Source: a virus. Taken from it: 32,388 nt of DNA. Location of the stretch: positions 1 through 32,388 of the IMG/VR virus record IMGVR_UViG_3300026519_000539; one strand, written 5' to 3'. The position numbers were made by a program, and so were the translations under genes. The notes beneath the pieces are model-generated. The model worked only from the letters and a program-made list of their open reading frames with translations. It was not told the DNA's origin and searched no databases. Numbering within the stretch: position 1 is the first letter of the stretch; every line of letters begins with the position of its first letter. Positions 16,188 through 31,035 of this stretch are shown in pieces.

Positions 16188-17984
16188 TTACGCTTCACCC
16201 TTCATGCGGACGCCACCACGGGGCTCCCCGTGCGCGCCCCGAGCGGAGATATCGCGTTCGAGGCAGGCCAGGGCATCGGTGGGCAAGTAGAGCGTGCCGC
16301 GCCTGGCGTGCGGGTCGACTTCGATGCGATCGACGAAGGCGCGGACGAGCCGCCTGGATTCGAGCGTGGCCGAACCTTCTGCAAGGATTGTGTCGATCCG
16401 GCGGAACCGGTCTTCGGCCCACGCGCGCAGGTCCGCCTCGGTGAACGGCACGGGCGACGCCACGCGCTTGCGGGCCAGGTGATCCCGCATGGCGTCGCGG
16501 CGCTTGGTCAGGTCGGCCAGCGTCGCCTTGAGTTCGTCCAGGTCGGTGAAGGCCGGGTCGGCGAGCATGGCGACCATCGCCTTGATGCGGCGACTCAGGG
16601 CGTCGATGTCGCGTTGCGTGGGGCCGGATTCGTCATCGCCGGTGTTTCGGTTCCCGGCCATTGCGGCCTTCACGAACGCGTCCACCGCCTCGGCGGCTCC
16701 GTCGTGGTCGCCCAGAACGATCTCACGGATCTTGCCGACGACGAACGCATCGAGGGCATCGGCCGGGATGTTGGTGCAGACGCAGACGGCCTTCCCGCCC
16801 CGGTTGTACCCGGCGTCGGTGTAGTAGCGATACTTGACACGATCGCCGCCGCTGGTCGAATTGATCTTTTTTTGAAGGAAGTGGTGCCCGCAGTTCGTGC
16901 AGAGGATCAGGCCCGACAGCAGCGATCGCTGAACGGGTTTGGCCAAGCCGCCGAGATCGCGCCGATCCGCGACGGCACGGCGGGCCTTCTCGAATGTCTC
17001 CGGCGACACAATCGGCTCGTGGACGCCCTCGACGACGAACCAGTCTTCCTGAGGATTATGCTTTTCGACCCGGCCGCGCTTGGGCCGGAGCGATCCGTCG
17101 CGGGCCACGCCGTTGATTTTGCCCATCGTCCGCCGGTTCCACGCGATCGCGCCGCGGAAGACGGGGTTGGCCAGGATGCGGCTGATCGTGCTGCTTTGCC
17201 AGTAATGACCGTCCAGCCTCGGCACGCCATCTTCGTTGAGGCGGCGGGCGATGTGGTGGTAGCCATAGCCCGCGATGCACTGCTCGTAGATGCGCCTGAC
17301 GACGGCCACGCGGTCGGGCGAGCTGGGCACGAAGCGCACGATGTCGCTCTTGGCCTTCTTGACGGTTTCGCCGGTGTTCAGGATGCGGATGAGCTTGCCG
17401 TCGGGCCCGAACTCCTGCTTGCGGCCGTCGGGCAGCCAGCGGAAGGTCCGCAGCACCTGGCCTGAGGCGGTGCAGTGCTGCTTGTCGTAGCCGTAGGGCG
17501 GCTTGCCGCCGGGCGCGCAGTGCTTGTCCATGATGTGCGAGATCGTGCCGCGGATGCAATCTCGCGACAGCTTCACGCTGTATTGGCGGGCCTGCCACGA
17601 CTTCACGCCCTGGAGCAGCTCGCCTTCCTCGCCATCGGGTATGCCCTCGGCGCAGAAGATCGCGTCCACCCCGGCGACATGCAGACGGTGCAGGTAGAAG
17701 CCCGTCTCGTTCGTGCCGCCGCGCGAGAAGCGGGAGATGTCGTAGCAGAGGACGGCAGCGAACCCGCCACCGCCCTCCGCATCCGCGATCATCCGCTCGA
17801 ACGCGACCCGGCCCTTGGCGCTGGTGCCGCTGATGGCGTCGTCGATATACCACCGCTCGATGCGGTAGCCGTTCTCCTTGGCCCAGCGCTTGACGAACGC
17901 CTGCTGGTCGGGGATCGACCGCTCCTGCATGTCCGTCGAACGCCGGGCGTAGCCGACGGCCCTGATGGTTCGCTTACGGCTCAT
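16188..17984 (-). CDS. Large serine recombinase (integrase)
   Basis: 598 residues from ATG 17984. The resolvase domain occupies residues 7-150 with catalytic Ser16 in [10 protein letters not shown] and further active-site arginines in SRFSRGG. The recombinase domain (about 160-345) contains [10 protein letters not shown] and the conserved [20 protein letters not shown], then [16 protein letters not shown] zinc ribbon follows (Cys362, Cys365, with Cys401/Cys403), then a coiled-coil region and a C-terminal tail. This is the complete domain set of large serine integrases, which integrate and excise phages and other elements at short att sites. The start overlaps the HARE-HTH gene by ATGA. Its end lies near the proposed element junction. 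Confidence 0.95.
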
Positions 17985-18394
17985 TTGCGGCCCGCCTTCG
18001 CTGCGGTGAACAGGCCGCGATCGACCTTCTTGAAGCGGGCGTCTTTGCCCTTGGCTGCGATCTCGCGGATGATGGCGGCGTAGAGCGTGGCCGATGGCGT
18101 CTTGCCGCTGGTCTGCCACAGGCCCTTGGCGATGGCCTGCTCGACGATCTCCTTGCAGGTCATCGGCTTCTTGGACTTGGCCAGCATTTCGGCAGCGATG
18201 TCGAGGATGCCCTTGCGTTTGGCGGCGGGCTTGGCCTTGGGCTTCGATCCGCCCTTGGCGGCGGGTTTGGCCCGTGTCGCGGCCTTGGCCGTCTTGGCCT
18301 TCGGGGTCGCCTTGGGCGTGCCCTTGGCCTTGGTCGCGGCCGTGGTGGCCCGGGTGGTCTTCTTCGCGGTCTTCTTGGTCGCCTTCGTGGTCAT
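17981..18394 (-). CDS. HARE-HTH protein with histone H1-like basic tail
   Basis: 137 residues from ATG 18394, with AAGGAG seven bases upstream. Residues 1-61 are Lys/Ala/Thr/Pro repeats ([20 protein letters not shown]) like bacterial histone H1-like proteins. Residues 62-131 form a winged helix of the HARE-HTH type ([20 protein letters not shown], then [20 protein letters not shown] and [10 protein letters not shown]). HARE-HTH domains are known next to nucleases and DNA-modifying enzymes and in RNA polymerase delta. Being ATGA-coupled to the serine recombinase it may bind DNA during recombination, possibly as a directionality factor, or shield DNA. This is inference. Confidence 0.85.
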
Positions 18395-18661
18395 GGTGTT
18401 CTCCTTGGAAAAGGCCTCGTTTCGCCCGGCGAACGCCGCCGGATCGAGGCACAGTGAGGCGGCAAGGACGGCCGAAGGCAAGGCATGTCCGCGAGGAATC
18501 TGCGAATGTGGGGAACTTCGCCGCAATGTGGGCAACCGGGCCGACCGGGGCCGAATCCGGTCGCCAAAAGCGGACCGGACAGGCGCACGAAAGTCTGTCT
18601 ATATTGGCTGCTGTTCCCGCACGCCTCACCGGCAAGCCGTCGCCGGGAAGGAACCATCGCC
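18395..18661. other. Non-coding stretch upstream of HARE-HTH/recombinase operon
   Basis: No gene could be supported here. It must contain the promoter for the HARE-HTH/recombinase pair; an AATATAG element on the minus strand around 18598-18606 is a possible -10, without a good -35. Two related words, GCGAATGTGGGGAAC (18502-18516) and GCAATGTGGGCAAC (18523-18536), resemble GCGAATGTCGCCAAG at 18662 and may belong to the repeat field to the right. Confidence 0.5.
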
Positions 18662-18790
18662 GCGAATGTCGCCAAGTTGGCCAACTTGCGCCCCTGCGCA
18701 ACATGCACAACTTTGAACAACTTTGCGCACCTTTGAATCCACGCCCTCGGGTAACTTGCGCATGTTGCGCAAAGTTGCGCTAAGTTGTTC
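18662..18790. repeat. Iteron-like field of direct and inverted repeats next to the RepA-like gene
   Basis: Several repeat types are packed in about 130 bases. A perfect 16-base palindrome CAAGTTGGCCAACTTG is at 18673-18688. CTTTG occurs at 18711, 18721 and 18731, exactly ten bases apart, in the context ACAACTTTG twice then CACCTTTG. On the other side TTGCGC recurs at 18756, 18765 and 18775 with TTGTTC at 18785, again about ten bases apart and in inverted orientation. TGCGCAACATGC (18695-18706) has an exact inverted copy at 18760-18771. Ten-base phasing puts the copies on one face of the helix. This looks like a replication origin, a partition site or an operator bound by the adjacent RepA-like or HARE-HTH protein. 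Confidence 0.75.
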
Positions 18791-20465
18791 AATCTGTTTC
18801 CGGGGCATCTTGCTGCGCATCTTTGAGTTTGCATCGCCACTTACCGCCCTTGCCTTTCTCCTTGTAGATGTCCACGACCGCTTCCTTGGCCCGCCGGAGC
18901 GTGCCCGTGCTGATGTCCCCCGCCTTGGCCGCTTCGGTGAGTTCTGTCGAGAGCATGTCCCCGCCGTGGGCCATCAGCAGGTCGATGACGAACTGGCTCG
19001 CGTCCTCGCGCACCACCGCCTTGCGCCCGCCGTTCATGGCTTCGTCGACCCGCATGTCCACCGGGTCGGGTTCCCAGATCACCCGCGCGGTGTTGCCCGC
19101 CGGTTCGAGCGCGTAGGCCAGGCCGGTCTCGTCTGAGCCGAGGTTGTTCTTGATGGGGACGAACAGACGCCTCCGGCCGGTCTCGTCCTGCTCGTCGCGC
19201 ACCGCGGCCCACACCGCGCGAGCGGCGGCCACGAAGGCCAGCGACCCCATCGCCCGGTAGATCGCCGGCAAAGTGCTGGCCTTGTTGAGATGGGTGACGG
19301 CCAGCAGGGCGACCCGGTGGCGTGAGGCCAACTCAAAGAGCCGCGCGAGCACCGCCCGCACCTCGGCGTTCTTGTGTGAATCGGTCTTGCCCAAGTAGGC
19401 GGTCAGCGGGTCGATCACGACGAGCCTGCAATCGGGCGTCTGCGTGATCGCCGCCTCGAGGGCGACGAGGTCTTCGGTCAGGTCGAAGTCCGTCTCCTGC
19501 GTCTGTCCGGTTGGGATGACGCGACGCACCGCCTGGATCGAGGCGATGCGCGATACATCGGCCTCGGCCGCGTCGAGGCGAGGCCGGATCGTGTCGGCCA
19601 GGTCGTCCTCGGCGTTGAGCAGCACGACCCCGCCCTTGCCGTTGGGCAGCAGCGGCAGGTCCGGCCAAGGCGACCCGCTGGAAACGCGGGCCGCGAGGTC
19701 GAGGGTGACGAAGGATTTGCCCAGCCCCGGATCACCACACAGCAGCGTCAACTTGCCCATGGCGATGCGCCCGGGCCAGAGCCAGCGGATCGACTCGGGC
19801 TGCACATCGCTGAGGCGCACGAGGACCGGGGCCGGTTGGCGGGGCGCTGCGGCTTGAGTTTGTGGTGGCGATGGTGGCTGTGGTCGTTCAGATGCTGGCG
19901 GAAGATCAAGCTCGCCGATACCGGGCAGGGGTGTGAACAAGGCCCACAAGCCGAACACATCAGACCACAGCGAACGGGGCACCTCGCGCCGGTTCAGCGC
20001 TCGTCCGTCCGGCTCCGGCGGGTCGGGCGGCTTGGCGCTACGCCAGTGCAGGTTGATCGGCGTCTCCTCGGCCCACTGCTGCATCACATCGAGCCAGCCG
20101 GGCAGCCCGGCCTTCACACCCGTCGCGCGGGCACGGATGACCTCGTAGGCCCCCTGCATGGCTCCGCGCAGCAGCGCAGCCCGGCGGTCGGTCCAGCGAT
20201 CGGCCCCGGTGCGCCGATGGCCGCCGTAGATGTCGTTGCGGCGGGTGTTCATCCGCTCGGCGAAGTCGGAAGCATCATCGAGGATGCACCTCGCGCACCG
20301 CCTTGCCCCGATGACAAAGCCGACGCGGAAGGCACGCTCGACCTCGGGCGGATTGGCCGGGTCCCAACCGGCGATCCGAACCCCCGGCGGGAGCGCCCGG
20401 ATCAACTCGCCGATGGGGACCGGCCCGTTGAAGCCGCTGTTGTTGGAAGTCGCAGCATCCGTCAT
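18789..20465 (-). CDS. RepA-like AAA ATPase (AAA_25)
   Basis: 558 residues from ATG 20465, which overlaps the previous stop as ATGA. Residues 230-450 form a RecA-like core: Walker A GDPGLGKS at 244-251, Walker B LVVIDPL at about 348-354, and sensor THLNK at 391-395. This is the hexameric helicase/ATPase family of plasmid RepA and phage or satellite replication proteins. The C-terminal 80 residues look like a winged helix (FVIDLLMAHGGDMLSTELTE). The N-terminal 180 residues, including the pair Cys57-x-x-Cys60 and a helical part, are not recognised. The repeat field begins at its stop codon, supporting a replication initiator or origin-loading role. Confidence 0.85.
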   Translation of the reverse strand: MTDAATSNNSGFNGPVPIGELIRALPPGVRIAGWDPANPPEVERAFRVGFVIGARRCARCILDDASDFAERMNTRRNDIYGGHRRTGADRWTDRRAALLRGAMQGAYEVIRARATGVKAGLPGWLDVMQQWAEETPINLHWRSAKPPDPPEPDGRALNRREVPRSLWSDVFGLWALFTPLPGIGELDLPPASERPQPPSPPQTQAAAPRQPAPVLVRLSDVQPESIRWLWPGRIAMGKLTLLCGDPGLGKSFVTLDLAARVSSGSPWPDLPLLPNGKGGVVLLNAEDDLADTIRPRLDAAEADVSRIASIQAVRRVIPTGQTQETDFDLTEDLVALEAAITQTPDCRLVVIDPLTAYLGKTDSHKNAEVRAVLARLFELASRHRVALLAVTHLNKASTLPAIYRAMGSLAFVAAARAVWAAVRDEQDETGRRRLFVPIKNNLGSDETGLAYALEPAGNTARVIWEPDPVDMRVDEAMNGGRKAVVREDASQFVIDLLMAHGGDMLSTELTEAAKAGDISTGTLRRAKEAVVDIYKEKGKGGKWRCKLKDAQQDAPETD

Positions 20466-20853: not shown

Positions 20854-22737
20854 TTACGCCTCGCCCTTGGATCGCACCGCCGCACGGGGATCGACCAATG
20901 CAGTGCCGAAGTCGTGATAGACACGCCACGACGCCGCCAGCCGGTTGACATCCTGATCGAGGCCGAAGAACTCGACCGTCGGTGACTGCCTGCCCTGCAA
21001 GAACGCCACGACCATCGCCGCGTTGCTCGGGGCGCTGAACAGATACCAGTGCTTGTCGCTGGCCGCCGACCCGTACTTGGTCGCGTTGTTCAGCCGAGGC
21101 TCGACCTCGATCGAGACCGCACGCCGAAGGCTGTTGCCCGTCGGCTGCTTCTCAGCGATCTGCTGGATGAACTCGCTTTCCAGGATCGCCTTGGCCGTCG
21201 TCTGCAACTCCGGCGGCACCAGCAGCGTCCTCGGGCGCAGATCGAGGTCGTTGCCCTCGGAATCTCTCTGCGTCAACATCGCGGTGATCGCCTGCGCCAA
21301 GGCGTCGATCCCCAGCGCGGTGTCCACCCCTTCGAGCAGGTTGCCGTTGCCCGCCGAGAAGAATCCGCCCGCGTTGGCCAGCAGGACCTCGTAAACCAGA
21401 TCGTTGAGCCGCCGCATCGCCGCCCGCCCGAAGGCCCGAGCGGTGTCATCGAAGACGCCGAGGTCGTCGTTGACCAGATCGCGGCGGTCGATGCTCAGCA
21501 CCTTGCCGAAGGTGTCGATCTTGTAGGTGGCCATCCACTCACTGACGCTGCCGTACTTGAGTTCGCCGCCGGGTGCGACCTGTTGCAAGCTGCCCGTGAA
21601 CGAGGGCCGGATGGCCGTCTGGTCCTTGAAGTCGCCCACGGAACGGACGACCGCGAAGGATCGCCAGGTCGAAGGTGACTCGTTGTAGGCGTCGAGCAGC
21701 ACCTTGTTGGCAACATTGCCCAGCGCCACCGGCAAGCTCGTGGTGCTCAGCGCCGCCTTCACCATCTCCTCTCGACCACGGGGTTCATCCACGCCGTCAA
21801 GACGCAGGGCAGCCCGGCACAGGTCCAGCGCATGCGTCGCCCGGAGACTTTCGCCATGCTCCATTGCCAACGCGCCCAGCGATTGCTCGCCGAGTTCGGC
21901 CAGCCCCATGCGATTGAGCAGCGCCGCCTCGAGCGTGGTCACGCCGCCGACCGACATCTGGTGCCGAACACCAGATACCATGGGTCGAGATTCACGCAGG
22001 ATGTTGAGCACCTGGGCCGTCAGGTCCTTGACCTCGATCTCCCCGGCGATGGCCGCCGCCTTGAGCTCGTCCACCTTCTGCTGGCTCACGCCCCAGGTGC
22101 CGCTCGGCGCGCGGCAGACATTCTCGATCTGTTGCAGCCGGTCGCGCTCATCGGCGCGGATCGCCTGCTCATCAACTTGAACTTCCGTGTTCATTGCAAT
22201 CCCTTCCTTCCGTGCAGCCGCGATGGCGACCGATGTGTTCGCGTCCGCCCCCAACGGCGTGATGCTCACTTCCCGGAGTGTGCCCTTGCGCACCAGCGTA
22301 AATCCGCCCGCCGCCGAGAGCGTCCTTCCATTGACTTCGATGGTTTCGCCGGGCGCGATGCGCTCGTGCTCGATCGGCACGACGCCGACGCTGGCCTGGA
22401 ACTGAAACCCACCCCGCGACATCTCGACGATCTGCCTGGCCGCATCGCCCGCACCCGACAGCACGCCCTCAACGACCAGCTTCCCATCGTTGATTGACGC
22501 CTGGCCGTGCCCGACGACCCCCGACACCCGCGCGTCGTGGTCGGCCAGCAGCGCGATCTGCCCCGACGCATCAAGACCATCGAGGTCGATGGCGACGGGT
22601 CCCCATGACCCGACCGCCATGATCCCCCCGGAGTAGGCAACGACGGAAATCGTCGGCCGCTTGCGATCGGCAGCCGCAGCCTCAATCTCCACGCCCGAGG
22701 CGGTGAAGAGCAGGTCATCCTTGACCAAGGTCGTCAT
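20854..22737 (-). CDS. Second fused prohead protease/major capsid protein
   Basis: 627 residues from ATG 22737, with GGGAGGGG just upstream. The N-terminal ~175 residues are an S78-type prohead protease: His67 in LLADHDARVSG and Ser116 in FQASVG match the catalytic His and Ser of the family. The C-terminal part (from about residue 290) is an HK97-fold capsid protein, with NKVLLDAY, RSVGDFK, VAPGGELKYG, IDRRDLVNDDL and GVDTALGIDALAQA. Nearly every one of these motifs is shared with the phage capsid at 27462-29528, so the two are paralogues, although clearly diverged. There is no portal, terminase or tail gene beside it; its neighbours are a sigma-like protein and a RepA-like ATPase. It could form a capsid of its own or redirect the phage capsid. 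Confidence 0.93.
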   Translation of the reverse strand: MTTLVKDDLLFTASGVEIEAAAADRKRPTISVVAYSGGIMAVGSWGPVAIDLDGLDASGQIALLADHDARVSGVVGHGQASINDGKLVVEGVLSGAGDAARQIVEMSRGGFQFQASVGVVPIEHERIAPGETIEVNGRTLSAAGGFTLVRKGTLREVSITPLGADANTSVAIAAARKEGIAMNTEVQVDEQAIRADERDRLQQIENVCRAPSGTWGVSQQKVDELKAAAIAGEIEVKDLTAQVLNILRESRPMVSGVRHQMSVGGVTTLEAALLNRMGLAELGEQSLGALAMEHGESLRATHALDLCRAALRLDGVDEPRGREEMVKAALSTTSLPVALGNVANKVLLDAYNESPSTWRSFAVVRSVGDFKDQTAIRPSFTGSLQQVAPGGELKYGSVSEWMATYKIDTFGKVLSIDRRDLVNDDLGVFDDTARAFGRAAMRRLNDLVYEVLLANAGGFFSAGNGNLLEGVDTALGIDALAQAITAMLTQRDSEGNDLDLRPRTLLVPPELQTTAKAILESEFIQQIAEKQPTGNSLRRAVSIEVEPRLNNATKYGSAASDKHWYLFSAPSNAAMVVAFLQGRQSPTVEFFGLDQDVNRLAASWRVYHDFGTALVDPRAAVRSKGEA

Positions 22738-23323
22738 AGTCCCCTCCCATCTTGTGCGGATTGAAACCGGCAGCCAGCATCTTCGGCCCCAGCAATCTGA
22801 GCCTGTAGCGAATGGTGCCCTCCCGCACCTTCAACCGTCGGGCCGCCTCGCTGACATTGCCGCCACATTCGATGACCAACCGGCACAGAGCACGGCTTTC
22901 CTCGCTGTCGATGAACTTGAGGATGTCGTCGGTGGTCCAGCCCGACCCCCGCAGGTCGCCAGGCCTGCGAATCCTGATGTAGGTGCGCGGCTTGTTCCCA
23001 TCGTCATCATCGCCGCCATCCGAAACACGGGTCTCCAACTCGTCCAGCTGAACGAAACGGTCGGCGTGTTTCCTGTTCTCGCGTTTGATGTAGTCGATCA
23101 TCGCCCGGTCGATGACCGTGTAGATCAGCGTCGTCTCCTTGGCCCCACGCGAGGAGTCATACCGGGGCGGATTGCTGACCAGTTTCAGCAGCGCTTCCTG
23201 CACCGCGTCGTCATGGTCGATGTGCTTCGGACACCGCTTCTTGGCCAGCTTGTACGCGAACTTCTTCGCGCTCTTGATCAGGTCCGGCGTCAGTTCGAGT
23301 TCGGGTTTCAGGGGGTCCATCAT
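22715..23323 (-). CDS. Sigma-70-like (ECF-type) protein
   Basis: 202 residues from ATG 23323, favoured because GAGGAGG lies nine bases upstream. Residues about 12-85 resemble sigma region 2 (HIDHDDAVQEALLKLV, then TTLIYTVIDRAMIDYIKREN). A Fis-like or region-4-like helix-turn-helix follows at about 150-180 (CGGNVSEAARRLKVREGTIR). Between them is an acidic Asp-rich linker (GGDDDDGNK). It overlaps the second capsid gene by 23 bases and should be cotranscribed with it. It may switch on element or phage late promoters; whether it can replace a sigma factor is unknown. Confidence 0.75.
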   Translation of the reverse strand: MMDPLKPELELTPDLIKSAKKFAYKLAKKRCPKHIDHDDAVQEALLKLVSNPPRYDSSRGAKETTLIYTVIDRAMIDYIKRENRKHADRFVQLDELETRVSDGGDDDDGNKPRTYIRIRRPGDLRGSGWTTDDILKFIDSEESRALCRLVIECGGNVSEAARRLKVREGTIRYRLRLLGPKMLAAGFNPHKMGGDYDDLGQG

Positions 23324-23327
23324 GCAA

Positions 23328-23873
23328 TCAGACCTCCTCGCCGCGCTCGAGCCGCTCCTTGATGTCATCGCACAGCGTGAAGCAGATTTTCGCAGGCTCG
23401 ATGCCGATCAGGTTGCCATCGTCATCGGTCACGCCGCGAGACGGAACCCGGTGCATGACGAAGTACTGGTCGTCCTCGGGCACATGCCGTCCGTACTCCT
23501 TGGACGCACGCTCGGCGGCCTCGCGCAGCGGGCGGAGGAAGTCCGCATACCGGCACCCGAAGGCCTGGCACATCGCGGCGTACGGCACGAAGATCTGAGC
23601 ATCCTCGAAGTGCTCGGCAGCGGCATCCACATCGGCCTGCGTCCACGCATCCCGGTCGGTGGGTTTCACGACACCGTTCTCGATGAGCATCTCGAGCATC
23701 ATCGGCTTGCAGTCGTAGCCGCGCGACCGCAGGTGGTTGGCCGCCGACGCCAGGTTCATCGGGAACATCTGCTCCCGCTCCTGCTCAGCCGCCGCCCGGA
23801 ACGCCGGGTCGCTGCCCGCCGGTGGATTCAGCCGAAGCTCGACATACTCGTCAAAGGACATTCCGATCCGCAT
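23328..23873 (-). CDS. Hypothetical protein, first gene of the capsid-2 operon
   Basis: 181 residues from ATG 23873, with AAGGAG eight bases upstream. Contents: SFDEYVELRLNPPAGSDPAF, then FPMNLASAANHLRSRGYDCK followed by a segment resembling a helix-turn-helix (MLEMLIENGVVKPTDRDAWT, then ADVDAAAEHF), and a C-terminal half with HRVPSRGVTDDDGNLIGIEP. It may bind DNA, for example as a regulator or small terminase-like subunit, but I do not recognise a family. The sigma-like gene follows after four bases. Confidence 0.6.
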   Translation of the reverse strand: MRIGMSFDEYVELRLNPPAGSDPAFRAAAEQEREQMFPMNLASAANHLRSRGYDCKPMMLEMLIENGVVKPTDRDAWTQADVDAAAEHFEDAQIFVPYAAMCQAFGCRYADFLRPLREAAERASKEYGRHVPEDDQYFVMHRVPSRGVTDDDGNLIGIEPAKICFTLCDDIKERLERGEEV

Positions 23874-24279: not shown

Positions 24280-25479
24280 ATGCTTCGCTACCGTGATAGT
24301 GGCACCGGCGGCAATGAAGTCTGTCCTGGTGCGTGGTTCGATGATCATGTCATTGGTGGCATCCGTGCATTTCGCGGGCAGTTCGGATTCTTCCGGTACG
24401 GAGCCATCTCGAAGTATGAGACGATCCTGAAGAAACTCGCCGAGGCGGGCAGCCCAGTGAATCTCGTTCTCGGCTCAAATGTCACGGACCCGTTGACGAT
24501 CGATGATGTTGAGTCGGTCCTCAAGATTACGACGGCCGGGGAGGCGAGCCACCTCACCGTAATTGCATTGCATGGTGCGCTGTTCCACCCGAAGGTGGCC
24601 CATATCGTGCAGGCCGACGACTCTGAGGCCGCAATAATCGGATCAGCCAACTTGACCGTCGCAGCGTTCGGCGCGAATGTCGAAGCGTGGATCGAGGTCG
24701 CATCGGGAACGCCCGAGTCGGATCGAGCCTTGCGGGATATCGTGCGGGCCACAGATTGGTGGCTCACATCTACCGACCCAGGCGTGTTTCAGATCACCAA
24801 CACCGAAGATGCGCGGAAGCTTCTGGCCGATGGAATCGTCGTTGATCGTGCGACCCGGCAACGTCGGGGGGCGACAACGCGCAGAGCTGCCGGGGCAGCG
24901 ACAGGACGCGGCGGCAGACGACGTCGCTGGACAGCCCCGCCCGGCGCTGCTGGCGAAACTATGGAGCGGGAGGGGGAAGTCGCGGAGCCCCCCGTTCCCG
25001 CAGGAACCCCCAGCGCCATCGTCTTGCGCTGGTGCAAGAAGCTGTCAGCATCCGATGCCCTGCAGACTGGTGCCGGAACCAATCCGACAGGGAAGCTGCG
25101 CTTGGGACAGGCCGGCCACAACATTGACCAGAACACATGGTTCCGTCAGCAGCTCTTCGGCGGGCAAAATTGGACGACCGTCGCGCGGGGCGCGAAAAAC
25201 TATGAAGAAGCACATGTGGCGTTCAATGTCCGATTCCCAAGACGGAACTTCGATCGGCAAAACCTGCTTGTTGACCACGCTGCGCACCGCGAAGCTGGCC
25301 AGCACAACATCGTGACGGTGCTCTCTTGGGGCCCGACGCTGGGGAGGTGGCTGCGCGATCACAGTCAGACCGGCAAGTGGGTCATCATCGAACTCGATGA
25401 CCGGGGCGAGTACTGGCTACGCATCCAAAGCGCTGCTCCTACATGGGCTCCGGCTGGGGCGCGAAGACGTCGTCGGTAA
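24280..25479 (+). CDS. PLD-fold restriction endonuclease, NgoFVII/BfiI type
   Basis: 399 residues. The N-terminal half is a single-HKD phospholipase-D nuclease: His103 and Lys105 in LFHPKV, then GSANLT at 121-126 with Asn124. Such enzymes dimerise to form one active site and cut DNA without metal ions. Residues about 185-240 are a basic, Gly/Arg/Pro-rich linker. The C-terminal part (from LRWCKKLSASDALQTGAGTN to the end) matches the B3-like DNA-recognition domain of NgoFVII-type enzymes: TWFRQQLF, QHNIVTVLSWGPTLGRWL and GKWVIIELDDRGEYWL. It is the only plus-strand gene in the region and ends ten bases from the adenine methyltransferase that would protect host DNA. Confidence 0.85.
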   Translation: MLRYRDSGTGGNEVCPGAWFDDHVIGGIRAFRGQFGFFRYGAISKYETILKKLAEAGSPVNLVLGSNVTDPLTIDDVESVLKITTAGEASHLTVIALHGALFHPKVAHIVQADDSEAAIIGSANLTVAAFGANVEAWIEVASGTPESDRALRDIVRATDWWLTSTDPGVFQITNTEDARKLLADGIVVDRATRQRRGATTRRAAGAATGRGGRRRRWTAPPGAAGETMEREGEVAEPPVPAGTPSAIVLRWCKKLSASDALQTGAGTNPTGKLRLGQAGHNIDQNTWFRQQLFGGQNWTTVARGAKNYEEAHVAFNVRFPRRNFDRQNLLVDHAAHREAGQHNIVTVLSWGPTLGRWLRDHSQTGKWVIIELDDRGEYWLRIQSAAPTWAPAGARRRRR

Positions 25480-25489
25480 CGCACACGAC

Positions 25490-27121
25490 TCAATGAGCAT
25501 CCATTCGGCGGTTGATAAGGCGGGCCCTCGCCCTGCACAGAACTGGCAGCAGATCCGAATAGCCTTCTACCTGTTCGCAAAGCGCAGCATCGGTCGTTGA
25601 TACCACGGCCTCTGTCCCGTCGCGCTGCCCGTCACGGGACCGACTCAAGGTGTCCAGTTTTCCCAACAGGGGCGCGGTCGAGACAAGCGGAACGGACAAT
25701 CGAGCAATCTCCGAGGGCACCAATTCGAGTACGCCGCCCCCGTATGTACGCCCCTCGATCTCGGACGACAGCAGCGTAAGCGTATTCTGGAATCCGGAGA
25801 CCAAATCCTTCTCGCGATGAGCAAACATGCTGAGCATCTCCCCTCTATACACCGTGTCAGTTGTAAAGACGCCCGCTTGGTTTAGGAGCAGGCGGTGATA
25901 CTGGTGCGCTCGCTTCGTCATCATGAGACGGCCAGATTTGATCTGCGGCACGCGATACCACGGAGAACGAATCCGGCACTTATACCGCTCGTTCAGTCCG
26001 TCATCCTCGCCCCGAGCCAAGTATTCTCGAACACGTCCTTGACCATTTGGTTTAGGACGATCCGCAGAGAAATCGAGAATCCATGCGCGGCTTCCACGTC
26101 GCCGTGCCTGAGTGTGGTCACTGCGTTTGAAAACGATCCCAGGCGCATCGGATGTGCGTGCGAGTAGTGGACGGGCCCATGGTTCGAGTCCGAACTCAGC
26201 TAGTGTCGAGTCATCGACCGTAAAAAACGGATTCGCCCCGGTGACGATCGAGACTTCTATTCGCGCAATGCTGCCCAGCCGATGCATGCCCTGGAGTCGG
26301 CACGCTTCATTGAACGCGTTGACCTCTTCTGCAGTCAGCAGATATCGTTGCCAGGATTCCGGCGACGCTTGCACCGCGTGCTTCCACTCTACATTGCCAG
26401 ACCGTCGATGCTCGCAGAACATGACGGGTCGCTTGCTTACCTCGCGCTTCGCGCGTACACCGCTTACCACAACGACATCTTGAAGGATGTTTGGAAAGGT
26501 ATTGCGTGGAAACATGTCAACGCGCAATGATGCGAAATCGCGGACCACCGTTGAGCGGAACTGCCCGCCAGAAACAGTGCAGAAGAGTTCTGTCGGCAGC
26601 ACAAGCGCGAATGCACCTCCGGGTCGCAAGAGCGACATGCTGATGAGTGCGAATGAAATCCAGAGGTTTGAGACACCGCGCAGCTCAACGCCGAGTCGTT
26701 GCATCAGTTCCTCGGCTAGCAAGCGATCCTCAGCGTCGACGAATTGGTAACGCACATACGGAGGATTGCCTACAAGCGCATCGAAGCACGGCTGCTGATG
26801 CCGCGCCCACTCAAAGAAGCTGTCATTGACGACTTTTCCACATAGCCCACTTGCTCGCAGCGCACATCTACACTTTGCGGCTTCTGTATCGACCAATTCG
26901 ATCGCGTCCACATGCGCGTCCTGCAGGCTACTACACGACGATCGCAGACGCTCAAGGCCGCGCATGAATGCACCGTCGCCAGCAGACGGCTCCAGCCAAC
27001 GCGACGGCACGGCTGGCTTGGTCAATCGAACCACGCGGTTGAGACACCAATCGACAAGCGGAGCAGCGGTGTAGTACCCCCCGCGGAGTTTGTCGGCATC
27101 GACCTCGTGGATGAGTTTCAT
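25490..27121 (-). CDS. Gamma-class N6-adenine DNA methyltransferase
   Basis: 543 residues. KLRGGYYT at residues 11-18 (motif X), LEPSAGDGAF at 43-52 (motif I, SAM binding) and NPPY at 119-122 (motif IV, catalysis) are in the order of gamma-class enzymes such as M.TaqI and M.PstI. The C-terminal half would hold the target recognition region (PWYRVPQIKSGRLMMTKRAH). It is convergent with the PLD nuclease; together they make a compact restriction-modification pair. The start is ATG 27121 at the edge of a non-coding gap. The gene is somewhat less GC-rich than the phage genes, compatible with separate acquisition. Confidence 0.93.
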   Translation of the reverse strand: MKLIHEVDADKLRGGYYTAAPLVDWCLNRVVRLTKPAVPSRWLEPSAGDGAFMRGLERLRSSCSSLQDAHVDAIELVDTEAAKCRCALRASGLCGKVVNDSFFEWARHQQPCFDALVGNPPYVRYQFVDAEDRLLAEELMQRLGVELRGVSNLWISFALISMSLLRPGGAFALVLPTELFCTVSGGQFRSTVVRDFASLRVDMFPRNTFPNILQDVVVVSGVRAKREVSKRPVMFCEHRRSGNVEWKHAVQASPESWQRYLLTAEEVNAFNEACRLQGMHRLGSIARIEVSIVTGANPFFTVDDSTLAEFGLEPWARPLLARTSDAPGIVFKRSDHTQARRRGSRAWILDFSADRPKPNGQGRVREYLARGEDDGLNERYKCRIRSPWYRVPQIKSGRLMMTKRAHQYHRLLLNQAGVFTTDTVYRGEMLSMFAHREKDLVSGFQNTLTLLSSEIEGRTYGGGVLELVPSEIARLSVPLVSTAPLLGKLDTLSRSRDGQRDGTEAVVSTTDAALCEQVEGYSDLLPVLCRARARLINRRMDAH

Positions 27122-27461: not shown

Positions 27462-29528
27462 TCACGCCCCTGCCACGACTTCCCCCCGGTGCCAGGCGAA
27501 CGGCACAATCTCCACTCGGGTAGCGCACGGCTCTTGAAGAGCACATCCAAAATCGTGGTAGCCGCGCATCTGGATGCCGAGGTTGTTGAAGTCGGCGTCG
27601 GCGCTCTCGACGGTGGGCTGCTGCTGACCGTTGAGGAACGCCACCTCGATCACCGGCATGTCATTGGGATCAGCGAGCAGATACCACGCCTTGGTCGAGT
27701 TGCCGGCGTAGTTGGTGTTGCTCAGGTAGCTCGAACGCACCGGGCGGAACTTGCCCGCATGCGGATTGGCGACCGGGGTCTTCTTCGTCGATGCCGGATC
27801 GCGCAACTCGGTCGAGTTCATGACTTGCGTCGCGGGGACATAGAGCGCGTTGGGCACCAGCAAGATCACCGGCGCGACGGCCAGCGGATGCCCATCAGGA
27901 TCGGTCTGGTCAAGGAACATCGTCTCGGCCTGCGTCAGGGCGTCGATGCCCAAGGCCGTGTCCACACCCTCGGCGTAGTTGTTGTTGCTTGCTTTGAAGA
28001 AAGCCGCGTTGTTGAGGAAGGTGGACCAGAAGACCTCGTTGAGTTTGAGCGCACCGCCACGACCGAGCCGGCGGGGGACAGCGGTGAGTGCATCGAGATC
28101 GTCGTTGATCAGATCGCGCCGATCGATGCCGAACATCCGCCCGTAGGTCTTGGCCTGGTTCGTGTACGCCGTCTCGCCGACGGTCGCGTGCTTGAGTTCG
28201 CCACCGGGTGCGATCTCCTCGTAGACGAATCCGCCGGTGAGTGAATAGCTCGACACCTGCTTGAAGTCCCGCACGGACCGGATCGCCGCGATGTCACGCC
28301 AGGTCGATTCGACCGCATCGAACCCAGCCCGCAGGAACTTGTTGGCGACATTGGAGAGAATCCCCGGCAAGCTCATGGTACTCAAACCAGCCGCCTGCAC
28401 ATCGGCAAAGGCGAACTGGAGCAGCCCTTTGAGGTCACTGCGTCCGTAGCCACGGTAGCCATTGGCCTGGGCGAAGATCAGCAGCGTCTCGCACAGTCCC
28501 AGCCCGTGGCGGTACTGGCGGTTGGCAGCGTCGAGTGTGCGTTCGCTGAACTGGGCTTCGAGTGTTTCGGTTTCCAGCCCGCCTGCCATGCACATCGCGG
28601 CTTCGACGACCGACCCATCGAGACGGTCGTCCTGTCGGCGGGGTCCGCCGATCCCGTTGTAGGAGCGCCCGAGCCGCATGACTTCGAGCTGGTACTTGTC
28701 CGGCTTCCAGCCCGCTTCGAGGGCAGCGTGTGCCAGCTTGCCCAGTTCGTCGGCGAGTTCAGGACGCGACGCGAGCACCTCGGCCGTCATCTCTTGGATG
28801 CGCTGACGGCGTTGTGACTCATTGCGTGCCCGCGTCGTGATCTGGTCAATCTCGGCCGCCGGGTCGCTGGCGGTGATATTGACCGACTTATTCATCGGCG
28901 GGGTTGGTCCGGGCTGGTTCGCTTCGATCGAAGTGGCGCTCTGTGAAGTCGTGGTGTTCTGATCGTTGGGTGTGTCTGGCATCGGTGTGTTCTCCTGCTG
29001 GTGCTGCGCTGCGATGCGGGCACTGGTCTGTTGATCTGCGCCGAGATCGACAAAGCTGATCTCGTTGAGTGTGGTTTTGTGGGCGACATAGATCGGCCCG
29101 GTGAACTTGCGGCTGTTGATCCTCACGGCGACATCGCGCTTGATAAACTCGAGCTCGTCGACCGAAGCCCCGATCGAGGCCTGCCAAGGAAACCCCTTCT
29201 TCCCGCTGGCGACGATTTCTTGAGCCGCGGGCGTATCGCGCGAGACGACACCCTCGGCAAGGAGCTTGCCGTCCTCGATGACGATGCGCTGCGTATGTCC
29301 GACGCCTTCGAGCGCCGAGTGCTGGAAACGCACGGGTCGTTGCTGGGTCGGGATGGTCATGCCGTCGAGATTCACGACGACGGGATAGGCGAAGCCGAGT
29401 GTGCGGATCGGCCCGCCGGTGTAGGCGACCATGCTGAAGCGCGGCAACGCGCCATCGCCCTGCTCGGGCGCAGCCGCTTCGATCGCCACTTCGCAGTTGA
29501 TCGCCAGGATGTCAGGCGTTGTTGTCAT
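27462..29528 (-). CDS. Fused prohead protease/major capsid protein of the phage
   Basis: 688 residues from ATG 29528, preceded by GAGGA; the frame is open upstream into the portal gene, but that part is not protein-like. The N-terminal ~190 residues are an S78-type protease with His70 (VRFQHSALEGVG) and Ser118 (FPWQASIG). A low-complexity linker follows (TPMPDTPNDQNTTTSQ), then an HK97-type capsid domain: NKFLRAGFDAVESTWRDIAA, RSVRDFK, IAPGGELKHA, IDRRDLINDDL, GVDTALGIDALTQA and C-terminal VAFLNGQQQPTVES, YHDFG. It assembles the head shell and matures it by proteolysis. It overlaps the portal gene by 17 bases, as expected for the head operon. Confidence 0.95.
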   Translation of the reverse strand: MTTTPDILAINCEVAIEAAAPEQGDGALPRFSMVAYTGGPIRTLGFAYPVVVNLDGMTIPTQQRPVRFQHSALEGVGHTQRIVIEDGKLLAEGVVSRDTPAAQEIVASGKKGFPWQASIGASVDELEFIKRDVAVRINSRKFTGPIYVAHKTTLNEISFVDLGADQQTSARIAAQHQQENTPMPDTPNDQNTTTSQSATSIEANQPGPTPPMNKSVNITASDPAAEIDQITTRARNESQRRQRIQEMTAEVLASRPELADELGKLAHAALEAGWKPDKYQLEVMRLGRSYNGIGGPRRQDDRLDGSVVEAAMCMAGGLETETLEAQFSERTLDAANRQYRHGLGLCETLLIFAQANGYRGYGRSDLKGLLQFAFADVQAAGLSTMSLPGILSNVANKFLRAGFDAVESTWRDIAAIRSVRDFKQVSSYSLTGGFVYEEIAPGGELKHATVGETAYTNQAKTYGRMFGIDRRDLINDDLDALTAVPRRLGRGGALKLNEVFWSTFLNNAAFFKASNNNYAEGVDTALGIDALTQAETMFLDQTDPDGHPLAVAPVILLVPNALYVPATQVMNSTELRDPASTKKTPVANPHAGKFRPVRSSYLSNTNYAGNSTKAWYLLADPNDMPVIEVAFLNGQQQPTVESADADFNNLGIQMRGYHDFGCALQEPCATRVEIVPFAWHRGEVVAGA

Positions 29529-31035
29529 GATCTGATTCCTCGTCCTCGTTGTTCGTGCCGACTGGAACAGCCGCACCCTGCTGATCCGCAGCATCCGCCG
29601 GCGTGATGCCCAGCGATTCCATCAGCTCGCGTTCCTTGGCGATCTGCCGAAGTTCCGCCTCCCAGTCGAGACCCTGCTTGGCGTATTCACGCGCCAGCGA
29701 TGTCGTGCGGCTGCTCAGTCGCGTGGCCTGCGCGTTGGCTTCCTTGGCCGGGTCCACATGCTCAGTCCCGTCCCAGAACCACTGATGCCCCCCACGAGTG
29801 CGCGACGCATCTCGCATCCGCATCGACTGGGGAAGCAAGCCCTCGACCAGCACCGCTTCATCGAGCCAGGCATCGAAGATGCGATCGAGCACGATGCGCT
29901 CGATGTGTGCCTGCTCGATCCGGATGGATTTGAAGTAGGTTTGGTGGTCAAGTCGACCCGAAGCGTAGTTGTAGCCGCTCGAGTTTCCGGCTGCGACATT
30001 GAACGGCATGTTCAGACACCGGGCGATCTCGTTGAGGATCTCTCGTTTGAAATCGCCATAGGTCGTCGCCGGTTGCTCGGCCTTGAGCTGCGCCATCTTC
30101 CACCCGCCGGGAAGTGTCAGGAGCATCCGCTGTTCGAGCTCGACGGTGTCCATCGGCTCGATCGGGTCGGCCTCGCCGTCGGGTGGAGCGTCGGTCTGCA
30201 GCACACCGGCAAAGTCGGCGGCCGTCTCGGCTGCGCTGATCACGGCGAGCGTGAAACGACGAAGTTGGGCGAACAATGGCAGCGCCGGAGTGATGTCCGG
30301 AATGCCACGCGATTGCCCGGGCCGATCGACACGGAAGTAATGGATGATGACCGACGCATCGATGCGGTCGTAATCGAGGTTGGCCAGCCATCGTTGGTTG
30401 CCCGGGTGCTGCTTGAGGATGTGGTACTCGACCGGATTGCCGAAGTCGTCGAAGACAATGCCGTCGATGGTGTGGGGGGCGCGGGGTTGATTGGTGCGAA
30501 GGTCGGGCGTCGCGACCTGATCGGCTTCAATCAATCGAAGATCGAGCTGCACGCGCGAGGACAGCCGAGGATTCCGGGCCAGGAGCACAAAGCACTCGCC
30601 CGATTCAGCCCGTGCCATTCGCAGCGTCCGGAGCTTGGCAGGCAGATCCGTCGCCCGAGCCCACTGCATGAACGCAGCTTCGATCCGCCGGTCGGCATCA
30701 GCATCACCTGTCAACATCTGCAACCGCGGCCCGGTGCCGATGACATCGTTGGCCAGCGTCAGCACGATCCCGCGTGCGTAGGAGTTGTTGGCGACCTCAT
30801 AGCGGGCGCGATTCCGCAGCACCCGCCGGACCTCCGGGCTCGCAGCCGCGTCGGCGCTGAGCCCATCGGCATTGGCCCAGTGGCGGCGGTTCCCATCCGT
30901 GGTCACCGCCGCGTCGTACCGGGCGCGAAGAGGCTGCAGACTGATCGCCCGTGTGCGTACACCGATTCCACGATCGGCATGTTTGCCTTCACGATGACGC
31001 GGCGTGCGCAGGTTGTGCATCAGTCGCATGAGCAT
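29512..31035 (-). CDS. Phage portal protein, lambda gpB type
   Basis: 507 residues. The N-terminal part has ASPEVRRVLRNRARYEVANN followed by YARGIVLTLANDVIGTGPRL, and the core has MARAESGECFVLLAR and IDASVIIHYFRVDRPGQSRG. Further on come FTLAVISAAETAADFAGVLQ, INPF-like MPFNVAAGNSSGYNYASGRL and the conserved HQTYFKSIRIEQAHIERIVL. These are hallmarks of the lambda-type portal family (PF05136). It forms the dodecameric DNA gate between head and tail. A long C-terminal acidic tail ends ESDHDNNA. It lies between the small gpW-position gene and the protease/capsid gene. Confidence 0.95.
   Translation of the reverse strand: MLMRLMHNLRTPRHREGKHADRGIGVRTRAISLQPLRARYDAAVTTDGNRRHWANADGLSADAAASPEVRRVLRNRARYEVANNSYARGIVLTLANDVIGTGPRLQMLTGDADADRRIEAAFMQWARATDLPAKLRTLRMARAESGECFVLLARNPRLSSRVQLDLRLIEADQVATPDLRTNQPRAPHTIDGIVFDDFGNPVEYHILKQHPGNQRWLANLDYDRIDASVIIHYFRVDRPGQSRGIPDITPALPLFAQLRRFTLAVISAAETAADFAGVLQTDAPPDGEADPIEPMDTVELEQRMLLTLPGGWKMAQLKAEQPATTYGDFKREILNEIARCLNMPFNVAAGNSSGYNYASGRLDHQTYFKSIRIEQAHIERIVLDRIFDAWLDEAVLVEGLLPQSMRMRDASRTRGGHQWFWDGTEHVDPAKEANAQATRLSSRTTSLAREYAKQGLDWEAELRQIAKERELMESLGITPADAADQQGAAVPVGTNNEDEESDHDNNA

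Follow-up and report, generated by a model that had tools for sequence, protein, structure and literature searches.

The repeat cluster at the 3' end of the RepA-like gene in the window (the whole stretch of DNA analysed here, an IMG/VR virus record of 32,388 bases) is probably a phage replication origin, composed of sites that would be bound by the winged helix of the AAA_25 ATPase encoded by the same gene. Origin activity of the array is proposed by analogy: the protein is helicase-like and phased, opposed repeats lie at the 3' end of its own gene, and for this reason the RepA-like ATPase is regarded as a candidate initiator accompanied by its origin. The minus-strand gene order is sigma factor, capsid/protease, RepA-like ATPase, repeats, HARE-HTH-like protein, serine recombinase, cement, head-tail joining and tail genes.

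All of the repeats named in the initial annotation were present when the window sequence was checked. Three CTTTG units lie on the plus strand at 18711, 18721 and 18731 in exact 10 bp steps, while TTGCGC units at 18756, 18765 and 18775 follow steps of 9 and 10 bp and are succeeded, in phase, by the variant GTTGTTC. TGCGCAACATGC forms an exact 12-bp inverted repeat (arms 18695-18706 and 18760-18771, 53 bp apart), a second exact 12-bp inverted pair, CAACTTTGCGCA, connects 18718-18729 with 18766-18777, and a perfect 16-bp palindrome, CAAGTTGGCCAACTTG, occupies 18673-18688. When 10-mers with at most one mismatch were counted in direct and inverted orientation, 59 repeat pairs were found at 18656-18835, compared with a mean of 3.65 (sd 3.08, maximum 21) in 1000 dinucleotide shuffles, which bears out the earlier judgement that the repeats are too ordered for chance; the cluster also ranks first among 180-bp windows gridded across the contig. 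CTTTG and TTGCGC, which had been described as separate units, belong to a single 12-bp site found in either orientation (TGCGCACCTTTG / CAAAGGTGCGCA) rather than to two different iterons. Likewise, although the listed repeats are in place, the cluster is longer than the 130 bases first assigned to it, extending from about 18672 to 18825 and reaching the last repA codons, with two further sites at 18802-18825. It is likely to comprise approximately 10-12 candidate binding sites, 12-mers resembling TGCGCAACTTTG, in two opposed and helically phased arrays (Table 1). Cumulative GC skew, a measure confounded here by gene orientation and thus uninformative, peaks near 20 kb with no minimum, and no mark of a bidirectional origin, at the cluster.

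Table 1. Coordinates of the repeat region and its neighbouring genes in the window (site scores are from a PWM built without the window clade).
Feature	Position	Strand	Remarks
Large serine recombinase	16188..17984	-	Pfam Resolvase/Recombinase
HARE-HTH-like small basic protein	18000..18394	-	Neighbour, dispensable for repeats
Two overlapping head-to-head candidate sites, TGGCCAACTTG(C/G)	18672..18689	.	PWM 8.5 and 12.8; form the 16-bp palindrome
Candidate site TGCACAACTTTG	18704..18715	+	PWM 7.4; 10 bp step; L043 TGGCCAACATTG
Candidate site TGAACAACTTTG	18714..18725	+	PWM 11.1; 10 bp step; L043 TGGACAAGTTTG
Candidate site TGCGCACCTTTG	18724..18735	+	PWM 13.2; opposite-orientation array; L043 TGGACAACTTGG
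Spacer between opposed arrays	18736..18759	.	Equivalent in L172/L173 holds AT-rich stretch GAACAAATAATGAT
Degenerate candidate site TGCGCAACATGC	18760..18771	-	Next 10-bp step; from phase and alignment with L043 AGGCCAACATGG
Candidate site AGCGCAACTTTG	18770..18781	-	PWM 7.0; 10 bp step from 18780..18791 site; L043 TGGACAACTTAG
Candidate site TGAACAACTTAG	18780..18791	-	PWM 8.6; overlaps repA stop codon; L043 TGATCAAGTTTG
Candidate site GGGGCATCTTGC	18802..18813	+	PWM 6.1; inside last repA codons; L043 form GGGCCATCTTGC
Candidate site TGCGCATCTTTG	18814..18825	+	PWM 14.2; inside last repA codons; L043 equivalent TGGCCATCTTTC
RepA-like protein, putative initiator/helicase	18792..20465	-	Stop codon 18789-18791

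The RepA-like protein matches Pfam AAA_25 (E 1.3e-42) and contains a RecA-fold ATPase at residues ~210-397 and a C-terminal winged helix at ~481-547, the recognition helix of which (520-530) starts next to G521. An AlphaFold model built from a four-row alignment, of good quality in the ATPase core and winged helix and poor elsewhere, gives the winged-helix elements in the order H481-499, E503-505, H506-515, H520-530, E531-535 and E543-547 with pLDDT values of 72-85 there, and the best Foldseek matches to this weak model are RadA/RecA/DnaB folds. The analysis revealed no primase domain in this protein.

The closest genome relative of the window, L043 (a Phycisphaerales MAG), shares its gene order and encodes a RepA of 83% identity. 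Its array aligns to that of the window almost without gaps, with CAAC/CAAG cores at the same 10-base steps, and the bases preceding these cores change together, from GCG in the window to GGA/GGC in L043. The palindrome as such, which the initial annotation had listed as a separate element, is not conserved in L043. Two further prophages, L172 and L173, are approximately 73% identical over the ATPase and the C-terminal part, and their TGGCCAYCTTGG arrays are likewise arranged in two arms. In all three relatives host-type genes (aldehyde dehydrogenase, Aldedh; alcohol dehydrogenase, ADH; and URO-D) start beyond the recombinase, where the window has phage cement and tail genes, which suggests that the window is an unintegrated phage whose attachment site lies beyond the recombinase and away from the array. 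The array does lie between repA and the recombinase gene, and inverted repeats near integrase genes are often att sites. Nevertheless, it is very improbable that the array is recombinase DNA (attP, integrase arm-type or excision sites), since it is intact in these three integrated prophages, rather than split at the prophage ends as a serine-integrase attP would be, and the host genes start about 2 kb or more away. Moreover, the recombinase has been swapped (36% identity in L043, no tblastn match in L172/L173, tyrosine type elsewhere), whereas the motif follows RepA.

To place the array in a wider context, homologues were searched for in 400 genomes from the order to which the L043 host belongs, 392 from its phylum and 301 from the phylum of the L045 host, and were found in 66, 28 and 7 genomes, respectively. 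Homologues in Planctomycetes prophages and integrative elements have similar sites at the same place, between -150 and +150 of the repA stop. Among the 107 loci analysed, a fixed repeat caller detected strong repeats at the repA 3' end in 63, compared with 6-10 at three control offsets, and motif-like repeat sets in 46, compared with 0-1, so that the same repeats do occur beside homologous RepA-like genes, a comparison that the initial annotation had called for. The 44 of the 107 homologues without strong repeats could be decayed elements, lie at contig ends or use other origins. In a set of 67 repA loci, the only peak of repeat density falls at -150..+150 around the repA stop, and in 22 of them no other stretch of the locus is as rich in repeats. 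The common 12-mer is about TG[A/G/C][G/C]C[A/G/C][C/T]CT[T/A]NG, and scanning the window clade with the PWM from which it had been left out yields 70 hits/kb at 0..+150, the background being ~5/kb. Spacings of 9/10 bp (30) and 19/20 bp (30) between sites of the same orientation, and of 23/24 and 42/43 for minus-then-plus pairs, are as expected for a protein that would sit on one face of the helix. Because many elements have the sites in the variable coding tail that follows the winged helix and others have them downstream, it appears to be their position, and not the coding content, that is kept. The genes downstream also vary (serine recombinase, tyrosine integrase or unrelated), with the array staying with repA.

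Beyond these loci, IMG/VR scans for RepA relatives, recombinase relatives and iteron or flanking patterns returned nothing, or 41 near-chance hits (to a 16-base pattern) that were left out of the analysis. The same caller made no significant iteron calls (scores of 4-7) in distant AAA_25 relatives from gut, Brevundimonas and Microbacterium phages and from plasmids. In relatives from a gut phage and a gut Clostridia plasmid (L212 and L216), there seem by eye to be 9-base-phased repeats, for example GGCAAGCGTGGCAAAGACGGCAAAGG, 3' of the AAA_25 gene, below the caller threshold.

Two other explanations of the array are also improbable. The initial annotation had suggested a binding assay with the HARE-HTH protein, and the array does lie in the intergenic region before that gene; however, the gene was found in only 3 of the 107 loci (the window, L043 and L178), and L172 and L173 have the same arrays without it, so that repeats and gene do not generally co-occur. 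As the covariation described below is with RepA, an operator of the HARE-HTH-like protein is the least credible of the alternatives, and binding by this protein is unlikely. It is also highly improbable that the inverted arrays form an RNA hairpin or transcription terminator. The single strand does fold better than shuffles (z -3.9), but this is inherent in inverted arrays, in neither the window nor L043 are the best-matching arms nested, no Rfam match was found, there is no U-tract at the stem end, and the homologous sites lie within coding sequence in phase with the DNA helix.

The strongest link between repeats and protein comes from covariation. Position 3 of the repeat can be predicted from the residue that begins the recognition helix (G521 in the window), with Arg or Lys accompanying G, and Ala, Gly, Ser, Thr or Ile accompanying A or C. 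This rule was first noticed by eye in a discovery set (13/0 vs 0/17 at a score of 8 or more, p 8e-9), and the residue column, the orientation core excluding positions 3-4 and the thresholds were then frozen before a hold-out set was scored (10/0 vs 1/5 among 40 new loci, some of them related to discovery loci; p 0.0014). The mutual information of the residue-521 column is 0.72, the next best of 370 alignment columns reaching 0.17. Misfits amount to 3 of the 52 called loci (L103, L104 and L176), where the repeats are apparently miscalled. In addition, the two palindrome sites of the window are of the G type, unlike its other sites, although residue 521 is Gly. Judging from the tree of the ATPase part, relatedness does not explain the covariation, because the residue class at 521 changes 15 times and the repeat follows in independent pairs; of six such pairs on supported branches, an average of 5.7 show the repeat shifting in the same direction and none in the opposite one (p 0.03, weak alone). 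One of these pairs is formed by the window (Gly with TGCGC) and L043 (Arg with TGGAC/TGGCC), in which G521 is replaced by Arg and position 3 changes from C/A to G at 5 of 6 aligned sites. From this covariation, the proposal that the C-terminal winged helix of RepA reads the repeats is well supported. The assignment of the iteron cluster to the RepA-like gene in the initial annotation agrees both with the covariation and with the repeats at the repA 3' end of homologues.

These observations are consistent with a mechanism in which the sites at the 3' end of repA would be bound by the winged-helix domain of its product. Several protomers would be placed on one face of the DNA in 10-bp steps along each arm, with the spacer separating the two opposed sets. 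Once bound, the ATPase may assemble as a ring helicase, which would open the DNA at the spacer for priming. The best reading is of a putative initiator-helicase that is built on a RecA-fold AAA_25 ATPase and would act in the way of SaPI rep-ori or P4 alpha. The C-terminal domain of SaPI Rep binds iterons that lie immediately downstream of rep (PMC7581432, PMC6092414), and in SaPI/PICI Rep-ori and SCCmec Cch2, as proposed here, an initiator helicase recognises iterons 3' of its own gene through that domain (PMC7581432, PMC6092414). Element-specific iteron sets flank a putative melting site in SaPI/PICI (PMC7581432, PMC6092414). Here, short repeats are likewise found at the 3' end of the helicase gene, covariation points to the C-terminal domain as their reader, and two opposed sets are present, with an AT-rich spacer in L172/L173 and none in the window, whose array lacks the clear AT-rich centre of SaPI origins. 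The system described here also differs in its RecA-fold AAA_25 core with a winged helix, as assigned by Pfam, where the SaPI/PICI Rep family has an AAA+ (MCM-like) core; in its iterons of ~12 bp with 10 or 20 bp phasing, often in the coding tail; and in being phage-borne rather than carried by a satellite. It would seem to work in the manner of SaPI rep-ori, but does not belong to that protein family.

Other systems share some of these features. P4 alpha binds origin repeats (ori/crr) with a winged helix and combines helicase and binding in one protein (PMC4234260), but it has an SF3 helicase and a Toprim primase, whereas the window protein has no detected primase domain. The AAA_25 core is that of the RSF1010 RepA-type helicases, and the RSF1010 RepA/RepB'/RepC system with oriV likewise has a RecA-fold helicase and an iteron origin, but there a separate protein, RepC, reads the iterons (PMC4234260), whereas here the reader is fused to the helicase. 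Replication proteins of the pRN1 ORF904 and Bordetella phage BIP-1 type have a C-terminal winged helix, which in ORF904 acts at the origin, and an origin 3' of the replication gene (PMC4234260). Their origin is, in contrast, a long stem-loop without iterons, and their helicase belongs to SF3. In phage lambda the iterons also overlap the initiator gene, but O is not an ATPase and its sites are 18 bp long and mid-gene. The location of the lambda iterons has been noted elsewhere as well (PMC7157519). A literature search on the AAA_25 family with iterons found nothing to the point, which does not disprove the existence of such work.

The main alternative is that the RepA-bound repeats serve control, as an operator, handcuffing or partition-like site for repA or for the HARE-HTH/recombinase operon, with the origin elsewhere. 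The HARE-HTH/recombinase genes do have the array on their upstream side, 51 of the 107 loci have a tyrosine integrase downstream in the same orientation, so that binding could couple replication to integrase expression, and 25-bp bins of the window array are 40-56% AT, with no clear AT-rich melting region. We nevertheless consider this explanation unlikely, since many homologues have the sites in the repA coding tail, away from promoters, the downstream genes differ while the array stays with repA, and known helicase-type initiators of this layout use the array as an origin (PMC7581432, PMC6092414).

If the array is an origin, its place becomes predictable from the gene, within ~150 bases on either side of the repA stop and with the recognition-helix residue as a guide; for environmental phages, sequence seldom reveals the origin. 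Of these results, the residue-base code is the one most likely to surprise, and the rule offers a directly testable specificity code for initiator-origin pairs. The window and L043 provide a natural close pair in which one residue and the whole repeat set changed together, showing how replicons may diverge in compatibility. There is about an even chance that phages and integrative elements of Planctomycetes, and of some Chloroflexota, share a widespread replicon type that has so far gone unrecognised, where a RecA-fold AAA_25 helicase fused to a winged helix reads its own 3' origin through a code of one residue and one base (Arg/Lys to G, a small residue to A/C at position 3), and where concerted change of all the repeats allows escape from mutual incompatibility. 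Planctomycetes have few genetic tools, and repA with its array would be a candidate minimal replicon for them.

Several observations concern the neighbouring genes. The HARE-HTH-like protein has no Pfam match even at E<=1, which leaves its label unconfirmed, and it carries a long Lys/Ala/Thr-rich, histone-like N-terminal tail. Upstream of its gene, a 20-base direct repeat (AATGTGGGGAACTTCGCCG / AATGTGGGCAACCGGGCCG, 18502-18543) lies in the best-conserved noncoding stretch between the window and L043, and is perhaps an operator or promoter. The serine recombinase is only 36-43% identical to that of L043, far more diverged than its neighbours, and L172 and L173, in which it has no tblastn match, have other serine recombinases at the same place; such differing recombinases at one fixed position point to integrase swapping. 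The contig encodes two Phage_capsid_4 protease-capsid proteins (20857-22737 and 27465-29594), of which the first is 93% and the second 34% identical to the L043 capsid protein, suggesting that the contig holds either an additional, diverged capsid gene or two phages arranged in tandem. Between them lie an Eco57I-like methyltransferase (25493-27121) and, on the opposite strand to it, a PLD-domain protein (24280-25479) with a weak match to NgoFVII restriction endonuclease, a pair (24280-27121) that may form a restriction-modification cassette. Finally, the Sigma-70 region 2 protein at 22718-23368, which adjoins the capsid gene, is approximately 41% identical to its L043 counterpart where its neighbours are approximately 90% identical, as would be expected of a fast-changing or swapped phage sigma factor.
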